Made by a program: the position numbers and the translations under genes | Notes under the pieces: generated by a model | What the model saw: only the letters and a program-made list of their open reading frames with translations | The model's database searches: none | Told to the model about the DNA's origin: nothing | Shown: in pieces, positions 28,190 through 34,668 of the stretch | Position numbering within the stretch: position 1 is the stretch's first letter | Layout: each line of letters begins with the position of its first letter | Assembly: GCA_021739765.1 (NCBI GenBank) | Contig: JAIPBD010000014.1 | Coordinates: 1 to 64,000 of the forward strand | Direction: 5' to 3' | From: Melioribacteraceae bacterium | Lineage (GTDB): Bacteria; Bacteroidota; Ignavibacteria; Ignavibacteriales; Melioribacteraceae | Length of the DNA stretch: 64,000 nt

Positions 28190-29233
28190 ATGAAACCAGA
28201 TTACACAAAAAGATTATTTTTCCTTTTTACGGGCATGATTACAATTATTGCCCTCATCTATTTACAGAGTATTTTAATTCCTTTTGTATTTGCTTTTATT
28301 TTGTGGTTTCTGATTCGTGAAGTAAAAACTTATTTGAAAAAGATAAAATTCGTCCGCGAAAAATTTCCATCATGGTTATTAAGTTCAATCGCGTCAATAT
28401 TATTATTAAGTGCTCTCTCTTTAACTATCAAGCTTTTGACTGACAATATTCAAAGTCTCTCATCTTCCCTTCCCGTATACCAAAACACGATTTCAACTAT
28501 TACCGAAAAAATAAATGCCGCATTTGAAATCGATTTATTTGCATGGCTTAAAGATTTCTCCGGTGAATTTGATTTTGCGGGAATACTTTCCAGACTGTTT
28601 GCGACGCTAACTTCATTATTCGGAAACGCGTTTACCGTAATACTTTATCTAATTTTCTTAATACTCGAAGAATCCGGTTTTTCGAAAAAAATAAAGGCAA
28701 TTTATCCGCACCCGGATGAATATCAAAATGCATTACACTTAATTCGCAAGGTGGAAAAATCGATCGGGGATTATATTACTCTAAAAACTTTGGTGAGTGT
28801 TTTAACCGGATTTTTAAGTTACATCGTTTTGCTGATTATTGGATTGGACGCACCGATTTTCTGGGCATTTTTGATTTTCCTGCTTAACTATATTCCAACA
28901 ATCGGTTCGTTGATTGCCACAATTTTCCCGGCAACATTCGCCTTATTACAATTCGCCGAATTTACACCGGCGGTACTGATTTTACTTATCGTCGGTTCAA
29001 TTCAACTAATTATCGGAAATATTGTCGAACCGAAATTGATGGGAAACACTTTAAATATCAGCTCTTTGGTCGTACTTCTCGCCCTTTCATTTTGGGGTGC
29101 AATCTGGGGTGTTACCGGTATGATATTAAGCGTTCCCGTTACGGTTATTATCGTAATAATTTGTTCGGAATTTGAGAGTACCCGTTCGGTGGCAATAATG
29201 CTTTCAGAAAATGGTGAAATAAAAAAAAAGTAA
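28190..29233 (+). CDS. AI-2E/PerM family membrane transporter
   Basis: 347 residues with about seven to eight membrane helices in the family pattern: two at the N-terminus, a soluble stretch (about 90-140), then the conserved C-terminal block FLLNYIPTIGSLIATIFPA, GNIVEPKLMGNTLNISSLVVLLAL and WGVTGMILSVPV. Family members include TqsA (AI-2 export) and sodium or permease-like proteins, so the substrate is undetermined. It lies 6 bases after the SpoIIE-type phosphatase gene and is probably co-transcribed. Confidence 0.9.
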   Translation: MKPDYTKRLFFLFTGMITIIALIYLQSILIPFVFAFILWFLIREVKTYLKKIKFVREKFPSWLLSSIASILLLSALSLTIKLLTDNIQSLSSSLPVYQNTISTITEKINAAFEIDLFAWLKDFSGEFDFAGILSRLFATLTSLFGNAFTVILYLIFLILEESGFSKKIKAIYPHPDEYQNALHLIRKVEKSIGDYITLKTLVSVLTGFLSYIVLLIIGLDAPIFWAFLIFLLNYIPTIGSLIATIFPATFALLQFAEFTPAVLILLIVGSIQLIIGNIVEPKLMGNTLNISSLVVLLALSFWGAIWGVTGMILSVPVTVIIVIICSEFESTRSVAIMLSENGEIKKK

Positions 29234-29249
29234 TTAATTGTCAAATCTA

Positions 29250-29279
29250 TTGATAAAATTCTACTATTTGTCCTATATT
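29250..29279 (+). promoter_or_regulatory. Predicted promoter of the metZ sulfur operon
   Basis: TTGATA (29250-29255), 18-base spacer, TATATT (29274-29279). The same bases also approximate the Bacteroidota pattern of TTG followed about 20 bases later by TAnnTTTG (here TATATTGG). Transcription would begin near 29286, just ahead of the leader ATG. Confidence 0.5.
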
Positions 29280-29290
29280 GGCTTTCGAAA

Positions 29291-29347
29291 ATGAAAAACA
29301 AAAATTCAAATATTATTCTCTGTCTTTGTATGCGGTTACGAATGTGA
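29291..29347 (+). CDS. Putative leader peptide of the metZ operon (18 aa)
   Basis: Reads MKNKNSNIILCLCMRLRM then TGA. Two Cys and two Met codons lie in the last eight positions, as expected for a ribosome-stalling leader ahead of a sulfur amino acid operon. The Cys codons overlap segment 1 and the stop overlaps segment 2 of the attenuator. There is no clear Shine-Dalgarno, and the predicted transcript start is only a few bases upstream. That does not exclude translation in this group, where Shine-Dalgarno use is weak. Confidence 0.55.
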   Translation: MKNKNSNIILCLCMRLRM

Positions 29348-29414
29348 AAGACTAAGGATGATAACATTAAACTTAAATCAAAGGTCTTTCGCTAAAAGTG
29401 AAAGGCCTTTTTTT
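29322..29414 (+). promoter_or_regulatory. Transcription attenuator (antiterminator/terminator switch) before metZ
   Basis: Four segments can pair in exclusive ways: 1, GTCTTT (29322-29327); 2, GTGAAAGACT (29344-29353); 3, AAAGGTCTTTCGC (29380-29392); 4, GTGAAAGGCCTTT (29398-29410). 3:4 is a 13-bp hairpin with a 5-nt loop followed by T residues to 29414, an intrinsic terminator. 2:3 pairs over 10 bp and would prevent it. 1:2 pairs over 6 bp and would restore it. The terminator ends 8 bases before the metZ ribosome site, so metZ cannot be transcribed from the upstream promoter without read-through. Alternatively part of an uncharacterised riboswitch. Confidence 0.65.
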
Positions 29415-29431
29415 GTAAATTGGAGAAAGTA

Positions 29432-30601
29432 ATGAGAAAGGAAACGATTGCTGTTCGCGCTCAAGCCGAGAGAAGTCAAAATCGCGAACACGCAGTTCCA
29501 CTTTACCTGACTTCAAGTTTTCTTTTTGAAAACGCAGAACAAGGACGAGCACTATTTGCCGATGAAGTTGAAGGAAATATTTATTCACGTTTTTCAAATC
29601 CTAACTCTTCTGAATTAATTGACAAAATGGCTCAGCTTGAAAATTGTGAAGATGGTTTTGCTTTCGCCACCGGAATGGCTGCCGTTTTTTCAATCTTCGG
29701 CGGTTTACTGGAAAGCGGTGATCATATTGTGGCATCCCGTTCACTGTTTGGTTCAAGCCACCAAATTCTTACAAAAATTCTTCCGAAGTGGGGAATCACT
29801 CATACTTACGTTGATGCCGAAAACTATGACGGTTGGGAAAAGGCAATAACACCGAATACAAAAATGATTTTTATCGAAACTCCCTCCAACCCTGCCCTAG
29901 AAGTTATCGATCTTGAATTTTTGGGAGCACTCTCTAAAAAACATAATTTAATTTTCAGCGTTGATAATTGTTTCGCGACACCGTTTATTCAAACTCCAAA
30001 AGATTTTGGAGCAGACCTTGTAATTCATTCGGCAACCAAATTTATTGATGGACAAGGCAGAGTTTTGGGCGGTGTTGTAGTTGGCAGCAAAGAATTAATA
30101 AAAGAGATCCGGTTTTTCGCAAGGCAAACCGGTCCGGCAATTTCACCGTTTAACGCGTGGATTCTCTCCAAAAGTTTGGAAACTCTTTCGGTGCGGATAG
30201 AAAAACATTGCGCGAATGCATTAACAATAGCGAAAAAATTGAGCGAAAATCAAAATCTTGAGAATGTTAAATATCCCTTCCTTGAATCCCACCCACATTT
30301 TGAAATCGCAAAAAAACAAATGTTGATGGGCGGCGGAATTGTAACTTTCGTTATAAAAGGCGGTTATGAACGGGCGCAGAAATTTATTGACGCGTTGCAA
30401 ATCTGTTCAAGAACCGCAAATCTCGGTGATTCCAGAACAATCGTAACGCATCCGGCATCAACTACGCATTCGAAATTAAGTGAAGCGGAACGCCAAGCTG
30501 TTGGCATATTTCCGGGTTTAGTGCGAGTTTCTGTTGGACTTGAACATGTTGATGATATTTTAGAAGATCTTAAACAAGCTATTCTAAAATCGGAGGAATA
30601 A
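29432..30601 (+). CDS. metZ: O-succinylhomoserine sulfhydrylase (Cys/Met metabolism PLP enzyme)
   Basis: PLP-dependent enzyme of the cystathionine gamma-synthase family. The start is ATG 29432 with GGAG at 29422; a TTG at 29420 is less likely. Seen: YSRFSNPNSSELIDKMAQLE (YsRxxNPt motif), GMAAVFSIFGG, ETPSNPALEVIDL, SVDNCFATP, the lysine in IHSATKFIDGQGRVLGG, and the C-terminal GDSRTIVTHPASTTHSKL and VRVSVGLEHVDDI. The motifs favour MetZ, which makes homocysteine from O-succinylhomoserine and sulfide; MetB or MetY activity is not excluded. It is first in an operon with an OsmC-like gene (1-base TAATG overlap) and sulfur-transport genes. Confidence 0.85.
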   Translation: MRKETIAVRAQAERSQNREHAVPLYLTSSFLFENAEQGRALFADEVEGNIYSRFSNPNSSELIDKMAQLENCEDGFAFATGMAAVFSIFGGLLESGDHIVASRSLFGSSHQILTKILPKWGITHTYVDAENYDGWEKAITPNTKMIFIETPSNPALEVIDLEFLGALSKKHNLIFSVDNCFATPFIQTPKDFGADLVIHSATKFIDGQGRVLGGVVVGSKELIKEIRFFARQTGPAISPFNAWILSKSLETLSVRIEKHCANALTIAKKLSENQNLENVKYPFLESHPHFEIAKKQMLMGGGIVTFVIKGGYERAQKFIDALQICSRTANLGDSRTIVTHPASTTHSKLSEAERQAVGIFPGLVRVSVGLEHVDDILEDLKQAILKSEE

Positions 30602-31014
30602 TGAAAGTTGAATTAAAAAGAGTTGATAAAAATTTCCATTTCGAAGCGAGCGGAGTATCAAACGTAAAAGTGAATATCGACGGAGCCGAGTCAATCGGTG
30701 GAAGTAATTCGGGAGCGCGGCCGATGGAATTAATTTTAATGGGGCTCGGCGGGTGCAGTGCGATCGATATATTATCCATTCTGCGCAAACAAAAAATAGA
30801 ACCAACAAGTTTTGAAATTGAAATTAACGCCGTAAGGCGAGAAAAGATTCCTTCAATTTTCACAAAGATTGAGGTTGTTTATAAAGTTACCGGCGAAGTT
30901 GACGAATCCAAACTCAAACGCGCGATTGATTTATCGGTTGAGAAATATTGTTCGGTTTCTGAAATACTTAACAAAACAGCCGATATCACTTACACATATG
31001 AAATCAGTAAATAA
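30601..31014 (+). CDS. OsmC family protein
   Basis: 137 residues with the two conserved cysteines of the OsmC/Ohr fold, in LMGLGGCSAIDIL and VEKYCSVSEIL. Family members reduce organic peroxides or handle sulfur compounds. The YhfA-like subgroup is often found beside sulfur-transfer genes. Its start overlaps the metZ stop by one base (TAATG), so translation is coupled. Here the context favours a thiol or sulfane-sulfur role over general peroxide defence, but that is inference. Confidence 0.88.
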   Translation: MKVELKRVDKNFHFEASGVSNVKVNIDGAESIGGSNSGARPMELILMGLGGCSAIDILSILRKQKIEPTSFEIEINAVRREKIPSIFTKIEVVYKVTGEVDESKLKRAIDLSVEKYCSVSEILNKTADITYTYEISK

Positions 31015-31060
31015 TTATTTCAATTAAATATTTATAAATTTTTAATTAGTCGAGAATAAT

Positions 31061-31537
31061 ATGACTTCAATCTCAGGACTTTGGGAATGGTATATTGCCG
31101 GACCGCTTATCGGTTTATTTGTTCCACTTTCACTTTACTTCGGTAATAAAATGTTTGGAATTTCATCAACATTCACTCAAATTTGCTCTGCTTTTGCGCC
31201 TCGAAATCTCAAATCATTTTTCACGTACGATCATGAAAAGGATGGTTGGAAGGTATCTTTCGTTACCGGAATTTTGCTCGGCGGATATATCTCACAAAAT
31301 CTGCTTAATTACGAAACGGTACGTTTTTTACCTGATCATTATTATTCTCTCGAAGGTTATGTTACACTTTTCTTCGGTGGAATTTTAGTCGGATTCGGAA
31401 CACGTTACGCAAACGGCTGTACTTCCGGCCATTCAATCACCGGAATTTCAACGCTTCAATTATCCGGCTTAGTTGCGACAATTTCCTTTTTCATCGGCGG
31501 ACTTTTATTAACCTACGCTAAAATGTATCTGGGATAA
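31061..31537 (+). CDS. YeeE/YedE-family sulfur transporter, first half
   Basis: 158 residues with four to five membrane helices and the family motif GTRYANGCTSGHSITGIS, where the cysteine lies in the pore of TsuA-type thiosulfate transporters. Together with the next gene it makes the two-gene form of YeeE/YedE. The likely substrate is thiosulfate or a related sulfur compound feeding the sulfhydrylase. It follows the OsmC-like gene by 46 bases. Confidence 0.88.
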   Translation: MTSISGLWEWYIAGPLIGLFVPLSLYFGNKMFGISSTFTQICSAFAPRNLKSFFTYDHEKDGWKVSFVTGILLGGYISQNLLNYETVRFLPDHYYSLEGYVTLFFGGILVGFGTRYANGCTSGHSITGISTLQLSGLVATISFFIGGLLLTYAKMYLG

Positions 31538-31539
31538 TC

Positions 31540-31941
31540 ATGAAATTTAAATTTTTGTTTACCGGAATTTTATTTGGAATTATCATTACAAAATCTGAAG
31601 TGATAAGCTGGTTCAGAATTCAAGATATGTTTCTTTTCAACGAGTGGCACATGTATTTGGTTATCGGTTCCGCAATTTTCGTCGGAATGATTGGTTATTT
31701 GATCATCAATAAAATTGGCAAAACAATCGACGATGAGAATATCCAAATCAGTAAAAAACCTTTAAACAAAGGCGTTGTGATAGGGGGAATACTCTTCGGA
31801 TTGGGTTGGGCAATTACCGGTGCATGTCCGGGACCAATTTTCGCGCAAATTGGAGCCGGAGAATACGCCGCGATAGTAACGTTATTCGGAGCGCTTGTTG
31901 GAGCGTTTATTTTCAATTTGGTGAAGGATAAACTTCCTTAA
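31540..31941 (+). CDS. YeeE/YedE-family sulfur transporter, second half (DUF6691-type)
   Basis: 133 residues with about four membrane helices and the second-half signature GLGWAITGACPGPIFAQIGAG, whose cysteine matches the other pore cysteine. It starts 2 bases after the previous stop. The stop lies one base from the end of the convergent ATPase gene. Confidence 0.87.
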   Translation: MKFKFLFTGILFGIIITKSEVISWFRIQDMFLFNEWHMYLVIGSAIFVGMIGYLIINKIGKTIDDENIQISKKPLNKGVVIGGILFGLGWAITGACPGPIFAQIGAGEYAAIVTLFGALVGAFIFNLVKDKLP

Positions 31942-31942
31942 C

Positions 31943-33169
31943 TCACAATACGAAGTCAATCGGAACGGCAAAAAGCTTTTCGCCAAAAGGTACAACTCTA
32001 TCTCCGAGATAGAGTAAATATCCGTATTTCAAATCGTTTCCAATTTCTTCTGCCAGCGCCCTCATGTGGTTGAACATTTCCGCTTTCGGTGAATGAGTTG
32101 ATTTTACTTCAATAGCGATTGCCTCACCCAAATTATTTTCGATAATAAAGTCCACCTCTTGCGCGGATGCGGTACTGTAATGATAAAATCGGCATCGGTT
32201 TTCACTCCAGCTTGCTTCTTTTATCAACTCCATTAACACATAATTTTCAAGCAAAAATCCCGTAGCCACTTTCTCACTTTCAAATCTTTTCGAGGTTAGG
32301 CTTAACAAATGGGAAACAAATCCCGTATCATTGAAATAAATCTTGGGCGTTTTTATCAATCTTTTCGATTTATTTTTTGAATATGCCGGTAAAAAACGTA
32401 TTAAAAAAATCGATTCCAAAAGGGTCAAATATCTTTTTAAAGATGTTTGTGGTATGGCGGAAGAACGAGCCAATTCCGCGAAGTTTACCAATGCTCCAAC
32501 TCTTGCCGCTAAAATATTGAGCAGTTTCGGGATTATGTTCATTCCTTCAATATTGGAAATTTCCCGAATATCCCTTTTAATAATTGTCTCGGAATATGAC
32601 TCAAACCAAGTCCCGCGGCGTTCGTCAGTTTTTCGGCTAACCGCTTCCGGATATCCACCGCGTAATATTCTATTGTTAATTTCTTCACGGCGATCAACTT
32701 TCTTTCCGAGAGTAATATTTCTTTCGAAGAGATTTTTAATTGTATTTGCGTCTCTGTTTTCAATCTCGCTCAGAGAAAACGGATATAAATTCAACAATTC
32801 CATTCTTCCGGCCAACGATTCTGAAATTCCGGGGACAGTCAAAACATTTGCCGATCCGGTTAACAGATATTTACCAGGTTTTCTGTCGTTATCCACTTCC
32901 AACTTTATTGCACGCAAAAGCTCTGGTGCCAGTTGAATTTCATCCAAAACAACATTCCCTTCAAACCCTTTTATAAATCCATGCGGATCAGACTTTGCCG
33001 CCGACAAATAAACCGCGTCAACCAAACTTATATATTCCGCGGGATGAATTGACTTTGCGAACTCTTTCAATAATGTACTTTTACCGACTTGCCTTGCACC
33101 GTGAAACATTAATACCGGGCTATCCTCGCATGAAGCCAAGATATTTTTTACAAGTTTTCTTTTAATCAT
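31943..33169 (-). CDS. AAA+ ATPase with DUF4143 domain
   Basis: 408 residues. Walker A in FHGARQVGKSTLL (near residue 23-35), Walker B in GNVVLDEIQLAPELL, sensor motif in LLTGSANVL. The middle part has a winged-helix-like stretch (VNFAELARSSAIPQTSLKRYLTLLESIFLI). The C-terminal DUF4143 nuclease-like domain ends with EVDFIIENNLGEAIAIEVKS. The family is widespread in bacteria and archaea and often acquired horizontally; its role is unclear. It stands alone between the sulfur operon and bacterioferritin. Confidence 0.9.
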   Translation of the reverse strand: MIKRKLVKNILASCEDSPVLMFHGARQVGKSTLLKEFAKSIHPAEYISLVDAVYLSAAKSDPHGFIKGFEGNVVLDEIQLAPELLRAIKLEVDNDRKPGKYLLTGSANVLTVPGISESLAGRMELLNLYPFSLSEIENRDANTIKNLFERNITLGKKVDRREEINNRILRGGYPEAVSRKTDERRGTWFESYSETIIKRDIREISNIEGMNIIPKLLNILAARVGALVNFAELARSSAIPQTSLKRYLTLLESIFLIRFLPAYSKNKSKRLIKTPKIYFNDTGFVSHLLSLTSKRFESEKVATGFLLENYVLMELIKEASWSENRCRFYHYSTASAQEVDFIIENNLGEAIAIEVKSTHSPKAEMFNHMRALAEEIGNDLKYGYLLYLGDRVVPFGEKLFAVPIDFVL

Positions 33170-33956: not shown

Positions 33957-34352
33957 TCAGAACTCTTTTAAATTTGTATGTTTGGCAATCAGATTGAAAT
34001 CAGAATCATTATGAAGAAGAACAAGATTATTTTCAATTGCGATTTGACAAATTAAGCAATCAATTGTACTTCGAATTGTGATTCCTTTTCTTCTTAACTG
34101 AAAATAAATTTTTGCTGCTTCCTCAAAAGACCCCATATGCGATTTTGGTTCATAAAACCTTTGTGTTGCGAGATAATCCTTTAGAATTTCGAATTCATTG
34201 TAATTAAGAGCACCTTGCAAAACTTCCTGATAAGTAAACGACGTTATTCCAAAATCAATGTTATTTTGAATCAGAGATTCAAATTTCCGGACTGAAGAAT
34301 TATTCACCCCTTTAAAGAAATCAATCAGAACTGATGTATCAACAAGAAACAT
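33957..34352 (-). CDS. vapC: PIN-domain ribonuclease toxin, VapC family
   Basis: 131 residues. PIN acidic residues are visible in FLVDTSVLIDFFKG (N-terminus), a mid Glu in TYQEVLQGAL, STIDCLICQIAIEN, and HNDSDFN near the end. VapC toxins cut tRNA or rRNA. Its ATG overlaps the antitoxin stop by one base (TAATG), so the pair is translationally coupled. Confidence 0.9.
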   Translation of the reverse strand: MFLVDTSVLIDFFKGVNNSSVRKFESLIQNNIDFGITSFTYQEVLQGALNYNEFEILKDYLATQRFYEPKSHMGSFEEAAKIYFQLRRKGITIRSTIDCLICQIAIENNLVLLHNDSDFNLIAKHTNLKEF

Positions 34353-34546
34353 TATTTTCTCATTGATTTATAATCGTAATCCTTTTCAAAAACCAATTTT
34401 CCGCGCAAATCACCAAGATTTTTTCGTTTTTTATTTTCAATAAATTCTTTTAAAGCCTGGTGAATTAAATCCTTTTTTGTTTTTACGTCGCTGTACTTGA
34501 ATGCTTCATCCATCAATTGATCGTCTAAATCAATATTAGTTCTCAT
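34352..34546 (-). CDS. vapB: VapB-family antitoxin
   Basis: 64 residues from ATG 34546 (MRTNIDLDDQLMDEA), behind GGGA; a longer frame to 34597 lacks a ribosome site. The N-terminus is a ribbon-helix-helix of the VapB type (NIDLDDQLMDEAFKYSDVKTKKDLIHQAL). The C-terminus (DLRGKLVFEKDYDYKSMR) is the usual toxin-wrapping tail. It likely represses its own operon. Confidence 0.88.
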   Translation of the reverse strand: MRTNIDLDDQLMDEAFKYSDVKTKKDLIHQALKEFIENKKRKNLGDLRGKLVFEKDYDYKSMRK

Positions 34547-34668
34547 AATACGTCCCTTTTTGTGTATAAGCATACACATAAATATTGGAAAATTCAATCA
34601 ACAAATAGCAAATGAAAATTCATACTTTCAAAAATACACCTTGAATTATCGTAATAACTTTGGAAAAA

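Follow-up and report, generated by a model that had tools for sequence, protein, structure and literature searches.

What controls the metZ-osmC-yeeE operon in the window, by which we mean the whole stretch of 64,000 nucleotides analysed here, and which signal does this control read? A sequence-only reading had placed an attenuator with the logic of the trp and his operons before metZ. We find that a ribosome-mediated, chiefly Cys-responsive transcription attenuator of this type very probably controls metZ-osmC-yeeE. Judged by its codons, Cys is the main input.

The leader ORF has 18 codons, MKNKNSNIILCLCMRLRM, and extends from an ATG at 29291 to a TGA at 29345-29347. Its Cys codons are at 29321-29323 and 29327-29329 and its Met codons at 29330-29332 and 29342-29344, and the frame with two Cys and two Met codons near its end thus reads as it was first described. 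Four segments, see Table 1, can pair in alternative ways. In the predicted fold of 29250-29432 (183 nt), 29311-29327 pairs with 29347-29363 to form the 1:2 hairpin. This region folds at -42.8 kcal/mol, compared with -26.8 +/- 3.6 for shuffled sequences (z -4.5, with 0 of 200 as low). The 2:3 antiterminator pairs 29344-29353 with 29383-29392 over 10 bp and is mutually exclusive with the 3:4 terminator, a hairpin of 14 pairs at 29380-29410 followed by a T-run to 29414. Each cut out alone, the 2:3 and 3:4 hairpins have energies of -14.1 and -17.7 kcal/mol. The 1:2 and the 10-bp 2:3 pairings are borne out as claimed earlier, while the terminator stem has 14 pairs and not 13. Further, segment 1 does overlap both Cys codons and the leader stop codon does lie inside segment 2.

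Table 1. Positions of the leader elements and of the genes of the operon in the window.
Feature	Position	Strand	Basis
Candidate promoter region	29238..29279	+	TTG ... TACTATTTG; also sigma-70-like TTGATA-18-TATATT
Leader ORF	29291..29347	+	sequence; counterpart ending at segment 2 in 11/11 leaders
Segment 1 (partner of segment 2 when ribosome absent)	29311..29327	+	fold
Regulatory codons Cys-Leu-Cys (TGT CTT TGT)	29321..29329	+	29 and 23 nt 5' of the segment-2 GAC
Segment 2 (antiterminator strand, contains leader stop codon)	29344..29363	+	alignment, fold
Segment 3 (common to antiterminator and terminator)	29380..29392	+	alignment, fold
Segment 4 and T-run (intrinsic terminator with segment 3)	29398..29414	+	fold, pairing kept in relatives
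MetZ-like homoserine sulfhydrylase	29432..30601	+	NF006003, TIGR01325, PF01053
OsmC-like protein	30601..31014	+	PF02566
YeeE/TsuA-type sulfur transporter, C-terminal-part homologue	31061..31537	+	PF04143 profile 174-309 of 310
YeeE/TsuA-type sulfur transporter, N-terminal-part homologue	31540..31941	+	PF04143 profile 10-103 of 310

A GGAG at 29422 lies 7 nt after the end of the T-run and the metZ ATG at 29432 lies 17 nt after it; a gap of only 17 nt between terminator and metZ is too short to hold a promoter. The candidate region upstream of the leader has the look of a Bacteroidota-type promoter. Since promoter-like sites in 28900-32100 are close to the number expected by chance (10 vs 8.6), this assignment is only a guess.

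The MetZ-like protein scores 512.5 bits with NF006003 (cut-off 522) and 475.6 with TIGR01325 (cut-off 510.05), i.e. slightly under both curated NCBIfam cut-offs for O-succinylhomoserine sulfhydrylase. The YeeE-type transporter (31061-31941) is split in two ORFs with the C-part before the N-part, an order that is the same in relatives.

In the mechanism that we propose the input would be charged Cys-tRNA, possibly Met-tRNA too, and the output metZ-osmC-yeeE. With ample Cys-tRNA, the ribosome would reach the TGA at 29345 and cover segment 2; 3:4 would form and transcription would end at about 29414. With scarce Cys-tRNA, it would stall at a Cys codon (codon 11 or 13), occupying segment 1 without reaching segment 2; 2:3 would then pair, the terminator would be blocked and metZ-osmC-yeeE would be transcribed. 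If the leader were left untranslated, 1:2 would form and the terminator would win, which would be the basal setting. The transcription start, leader translation, stalling, termination and response to starvation are steps that we infer.

To place this leader among its relatives, MetZ homologues were searched for in 59 related genomes and in 392 genomes of the class, 35 of which have a close homologue (E<=1e-150). Further loci came from a scan of named genomes, among them the Ignavibacteria MAGs GD18-4 (L033), HGW-Ignavibacteriae-2 (L034), clean1190 (L035) and OS_PC_MetaG.mb.9 (L031). Some loci and class genomes are the same records: L033 is G031, L034 is G119, L031 is G020, L036 is G025 and L032 is G380. 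Leaders were inspected in 30 of the 35 metZ-bearing class genomes.

Eleven metZ leaders share the layout: those of the window, L033, L137, L034 and L031 (all family f1), that of L035, and those of L111, L112, L114, L115 and L117 (family f19). They represent six genus codes plus L035; L137 (G245) has the same genus code as L033. The eleven were picked by the three pairing segments, and Cys was no criterion. The leader peptides end in CLCMRLRM, CICEEDL, CMCMHRACEEDL, CMCKKET, CWCMNPF and CKCNNLNC, and in MCCLMLSSPS, AGCLRIFESP, SCCLKIFKPS, AGCLTIVDSP and PCRTGPLHR.

A short ORF (8-45 codons, with its stop at most 12 nt from the segment-2 GAC) ends at segment 2 in all eleven leaders, compared with a mean of 6.3 in shuffles, where 3 of 3000 reach eleven; in 8/11 the stop is at exactly -5 of the GAC. 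A Cys codon is found at -33..-21 of the segment-2 GAC in 10/11 leaders, and at exactly -29 in seven of them. In 3000 dinucleotide shuffles of the upstream part, the mean for this register is 1.19 and the maximum 6/11. Cys is also the most enriched of the 20 residues in the last ~10 codons (11/11 vs 2.6 expected, z 6.2), followed by Met (6/11 vs 1.5, z 4.0) and Pro (6/11 vs 2.0, z 3.3).

The signal is kept in a representative set of one leader per genus code plus L035 (n=7), where Cys is in register in 6/7, which 0/3000 shuffles reach, and Met is present in 5/7, reached by 2/3000. The identity of the leader ORFs between representatives is 0.51, and 0.52 for shuffled pairs; apart from the Cys codons the ORFs thus resemble each other no more than shuffles do, and the Cys register has persisted as the remaining ORF sequence drifted. 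The exception is L033, where Cys codons at -45, -42, -15 and -9 fall outside the register; its genus-mate G245 has Cys codons at -30 and -24 among others. The L117 leader has a single Cys codon. At the level of sequence, the ORF, its codons and the alternative pairings are conserved, and the register kept, across genera. The claim of a trp/his-type logic is upheld by the ORF, Cys register and alternative pairings that the eleven leaders keep.

Segments 2, 3 and 4 are near-repeats based on GAAAGAC / GTCTTTC / GAAAGAC, and are kept across the leaders. Pairing was analysed in ten leaders; L137, whose 36 letters are identical to those of L033, was omitted. Standard pairs make up 95.8% of the cells in 3:4 and 96.3% in 2:3, while slid controls are 35-76% and 28-65% paired. 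Compensatory change is thin: one column in 3:4 (A-U to G-C in 4/10 rows) and one in 2:3 (2/10 rows). In L033 and L035, it is seen jointly in segments 2, 3 and 4. The covariation score of 2:3 in the ten leaders is reached by 125/500 shuffles, as the segments themselves are conserved. A comparison of orthologous leaders had been proposed as a check on the attenuator; in it the short Cys ORF and the 2:3/3:4 pairing are retained, but there is little compensation.

Segment 1 is not conserved in place. In 7/11 leaders segment 2 is mostly paired with upstream sequence, via different stretches; L114 and L117 show this pairing in part, and L031 and L115 lack it. For L112, folding of segments 2-4 favours the antiterminator.

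The element seems specific to metZ. Over the 392 class genomes, the three-segment pattern has 8 matches in 8 genomes, all of which precede metZ (in one case the contig stops within this gene), and a reversed-pattern control has none. The pattern was written after the first leaders had been seen, so its value lies in the absence of matches elsewhere; it misses the known leaders L031 and L034 by one base each. A blunter scan for an ORF plus terminator with C>=2 (L129 and L130 left out) flags 7/11 loci of the metZ-yeeE type, compared with 1/18 trp, 3/17 his, 1/18 other metZ, 0/17 ilv and 0/18 cysK loci. Upstream of metZ in L132, a chance-looking short ORF, MRMAGAMMCMCMMYYIISGTD, is found near a hairpin; this locus is flagged by the blunt scan and has no three-segment match.

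Further, the leader accompanies metZ linked to yeeE, in 9/10 loci where both genes are visible. The exception is L036 (the same as L004), from the window's own family f1, which has metZ-osmC-yeeE and a terminator but neither segment 2 nor a Cys ORF; it may be an attenuator in decay or may work by antitermination of some other kind. The terminator of L036 is strong and lies ~60 nt before metZ. Among the 20 MetZ loci without yeeE in the examined stretch (L005, L113 and L118-L135; little of the contig is left downstream of metZ in L113 and L129) the pattern has no match, and the same layout was not seen upstream of metZ in those whose upstream stretches were inspected. In L130-L134 osmC lies directly upstream of metZ and not downstream, so a metZ-osmC linkage exists also without the leader.

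In a MetZ tree of 48 rows (G245, which is cut, was left out) the ten rows with a leader are split between two positions. The five f19 rows stand alone (99/95), and the other five share a group (97/96) with L004, which has a terminator only, and with L005 and L113, which have none. Other f19 MetZ proteins, without leader, sit elsewhere on the tree. This distribution is compatible with a single gain followed by losses and also with transfer of the operon together with its leader; the attenuator may have moved between families along with the operon. No MetZ relatives were found in viral contigs.

The specificity bears directly on other explanations of the hairpin. The gene upstream, an AI-2E transporter (28190-29233), is on the same strand as metZ and the 3:4 hairpin starts 147 nt later, which would suit a terminator of that gene, with the ORF there by chance. 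Against this, the three-segment pattern occurs only before metZ across the 392 genomes, the AI-2E protein is found only beside the window's own copy among the metZ loci inspected, and ORF and Cys register exceed shuffles. We consider this reading highly improbable and reject it, given that in the 392 genomes the pattern is found solely before metZ. The terminator could also be the expression platform of a metabolite riboswitch, for SAM or another ligand, and the short ORF fortuitous. Such elements do precede metZ in other bacteria, with RF00162 in Adhaeribacter aquaticus (L039) and Cecembia rubra (L090) and, according to part of one report, SAM-II in S. meliloti (PMC9373788), and the genome of the window carries an RF00162 copy elsewhere. 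However, the window and ten further metZ loci (L031, L033-L036, L111, L112, L114, L115 and L117) contain no Rfam match at gathering score, and the best sub-threshold rows in the window are weak (PyrR 23 bits vs 54; mir-71 18.8 vs 50). Unlike an aptamer, the leader ORF stretch upstream of segment 2 shows no sequence conservation, its identity being that of shuffles, while the Cys register is kept. A riboswitch is hard to credit and is rejected on the lack of any covariance model at gathering score in the loci scanned; a SAM-type aptamer had not been recognised by eye either, and on this point the two agree. The T-box (RF00230) gives no covariance model row in the window.

If the attenuator is real, it could still be a general sensor of sulfur amino acids that reads Met as well as Cys. 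The enrichment of Met codons described above and the position of the MetZ product, homocysteine, as Met precursor favour such a dual input; with Met codons also enriched, Cys may not be the sole input. On the other hand, the last ~10 codons include no Met in five leaders (L031, L112, L114, L115 and L117) but include Cys in all eleven, and the genome has a separate SAM riboswitch for its methionine branch. We regard a joint Cys and Met sensor as unlikely, though it keeps some weight; Met as the main input is rejected, being absent in 5/11 leaders. Both residues had been named earlier as stalling codons; of the two, the Met codons are less constant than the Cys codons. The reading that we prefer is still an attenuator that responds chiefly to Cys.

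Is such an attenuator out of place in this lineage? Peptide attenuators had been thought little described in the phylum, and for the relatives studied here this is wrong. Leaders with at least two Trp codons near the end, plus a terminator, precede trpE in 17/18 loci of relatives from the same family or order, and leaders with at least three His codons, plus a terminator, precede hisG in 15/17 (L203-L219). The scan covered the 18 full-length ones of 27 trpE matches, and 17 of 17 for hisG. The trpE leaders (L220-L237) often end in WWW or WWWW; the one from the window's genome (L237) reads MKSNTTYGKFYFFFWWWFTITFGQE. The hisG leader of the same genome (L216) is below the His threshold and reads THRTYHH. 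There is no cross-signal, with W>=2 at 0/17 his loci and H>=3 at 0/18 trp loci, and Rfam has no match in the six trpE and seven hisG loci scanned.

Leader-peptide attenuation thus looks, from these sequences, ordinary in the lineage and, with Trp and His leaders routine in relatives, Cys at metZ is one more reading of the same machinery. At the thresholds used, no branched-chain leader was found before ilvB (0/17 scanned of 22 matches); such leaders may sit before ilvD. Cys leaders were not found before cysE (0/6 scanned, a weaker match, L157, left out), cysK (0/18 scanned of 20 loci) or other yeeE loci (0/29 scanned of 30, the window's own left out).

The trp and his leader-peptide attenuators of enterobacteria, with trpL and hisL of E. 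coli, have the same parts: a short ORF with regulatory codons, segments 1-4, a stop at segment 2 and a terminator before the first structural gene. The differences are the Cys codons, the genes metZ-osmC-yeeE and the lineage, Ignavibacteria; the regulatory codons are also few (C-x-C, CC or a single one), in contrast to the long runs of trpL and hisL. The trpE and hisG leaders of same-order relatives share the layout of a pathway-codon ORF followed by a terminator, but have Trp or His codons and other terminator sequences. RF00162 precedes metY-metX in the window's genome, as it does the metZ relatives named above, while the metZ leader of the window has no aptamer.

Attenuation by Cys codons is a kind already known, and what is new here is the gene, metZ, and the lineage. 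In the open-access literature, we found no report of such a leader on metZ or in Ignavibacteria. In 2004, Vitreschak reportedly extended attenuators to Bacteroidetes/Chlorobi. To the knowledge of the authors of a 2010 study, Proteobacteria and Actinobacteria were the only groups with demonstrated leader peptides until their own Firmicutes case (PMC2965389). For B. thetaiotaomicron, PMC7366714 notes long 5' UTRs whose short ORFs are "reminiscent of leader peptides".

Close by description is uORFC-8-2 before cysS in Rhodobacterales, for which excerpts of PMC8632094 give two conserved Cys codons, an intrinsic terminator and predicted ribosome-mediated attenuation. Cys codons in an upstream ORF and an intrinsic terminator are common to both. 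However, in these alphaproteobacteria the gene downstream encodes Cys-tRNA synthetase and the Cys codons are in tandem, usually codons 14-15, while the window has C-L-C and metZ. Short ORFs with Cys codons near the stop are also found before sulfur genes of actinobacteria, namely the cys operons of Mycobacterium and Propionibacterium and cbs of Bifidobacterium. According to sections of PMC1262725, these leaders have no conserved terminators, and Rho or translation attenuation was proposed. The mycobacterial polycysteine ORFs (Canestrari 2020) are cited in passages of PMC13236596 and PMC9031893 as acting by translation attenuation. As far as these sources describe them, the actinobacterial leaders have runs of Cys and those of mycobacteria are Cys-responsive, leaderless ORFs; the window instead has a 14-pair terminator between leader ORF and gene. 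The metZ leaders are a comparative case of transcription attenuation by Cys codons with the full set of parts. They link Cys, as input, to a gene that is mostly classed as a methionine gene and is under SAM control elsewhere.

Why might cysteine govern metZ? The window's genome has one SAM riboswitch (RF00162, 88 bits, G000:C24:62245-62357, minus strand; L277, L281). It heads an operon of metY, metX, aspartokinase/homoserine dehydrogenase (thrA) and two genes that are probably asd and thrB. The threonine-branch genes are hereby placed under predicted SAM control. On contig C33 the genome has a cysteine-synthase-like gene, a CBS gene above cut-off and a CGL-like gene below the cut-offs. Serine acetyltransferase was not found in it; the best TIGR01172 match has E 5.3e-9 and covers only part of the profile.

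With no serine acetyltransferase found and with CBS and CGL genes present, we infer that MetZ feeds cysteine via homocysteine: MetZ and the YeeE importer would together bring reduced sulfur into homocysteine, from which CBS and CGL could make cysteine. We tentatively propose, with rather more doubt than confidence, that the two homocysteine synthases are split, with metY, metX and the threonine genes under SAM and MetZ and the importer under Cys-tRNA, and that MetZ-YeeE is the main cysteine supply. This is a direct physiological prediction on where these bacteria obtain cysteine, and if the split is true the "methionine gene" metZ is to be read as a cysteine gene in this organism.

The leader could in principle be tied to the loss of cysE. 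At E<=1e-15, neither the window's genome nor any of the five f19 genomes with the leader has a TIGR01172 match, but G031, G245, G119 and G020, which also bear the leader, do have one (the comparison covers the leader-bearing genomes apart from that of L035); leaderless genomes are on both sides. With four leader-bearing genomes that have a cysE match, cysE loss cannot be the general reason for the leader, and we reject it as a general rule.

Elsewhere in the window, on the minus strand at 33957-34597, two small adjoining ORFs look by eye like a putative PIN-domain toxin and its antitoxin (VapBC-like).
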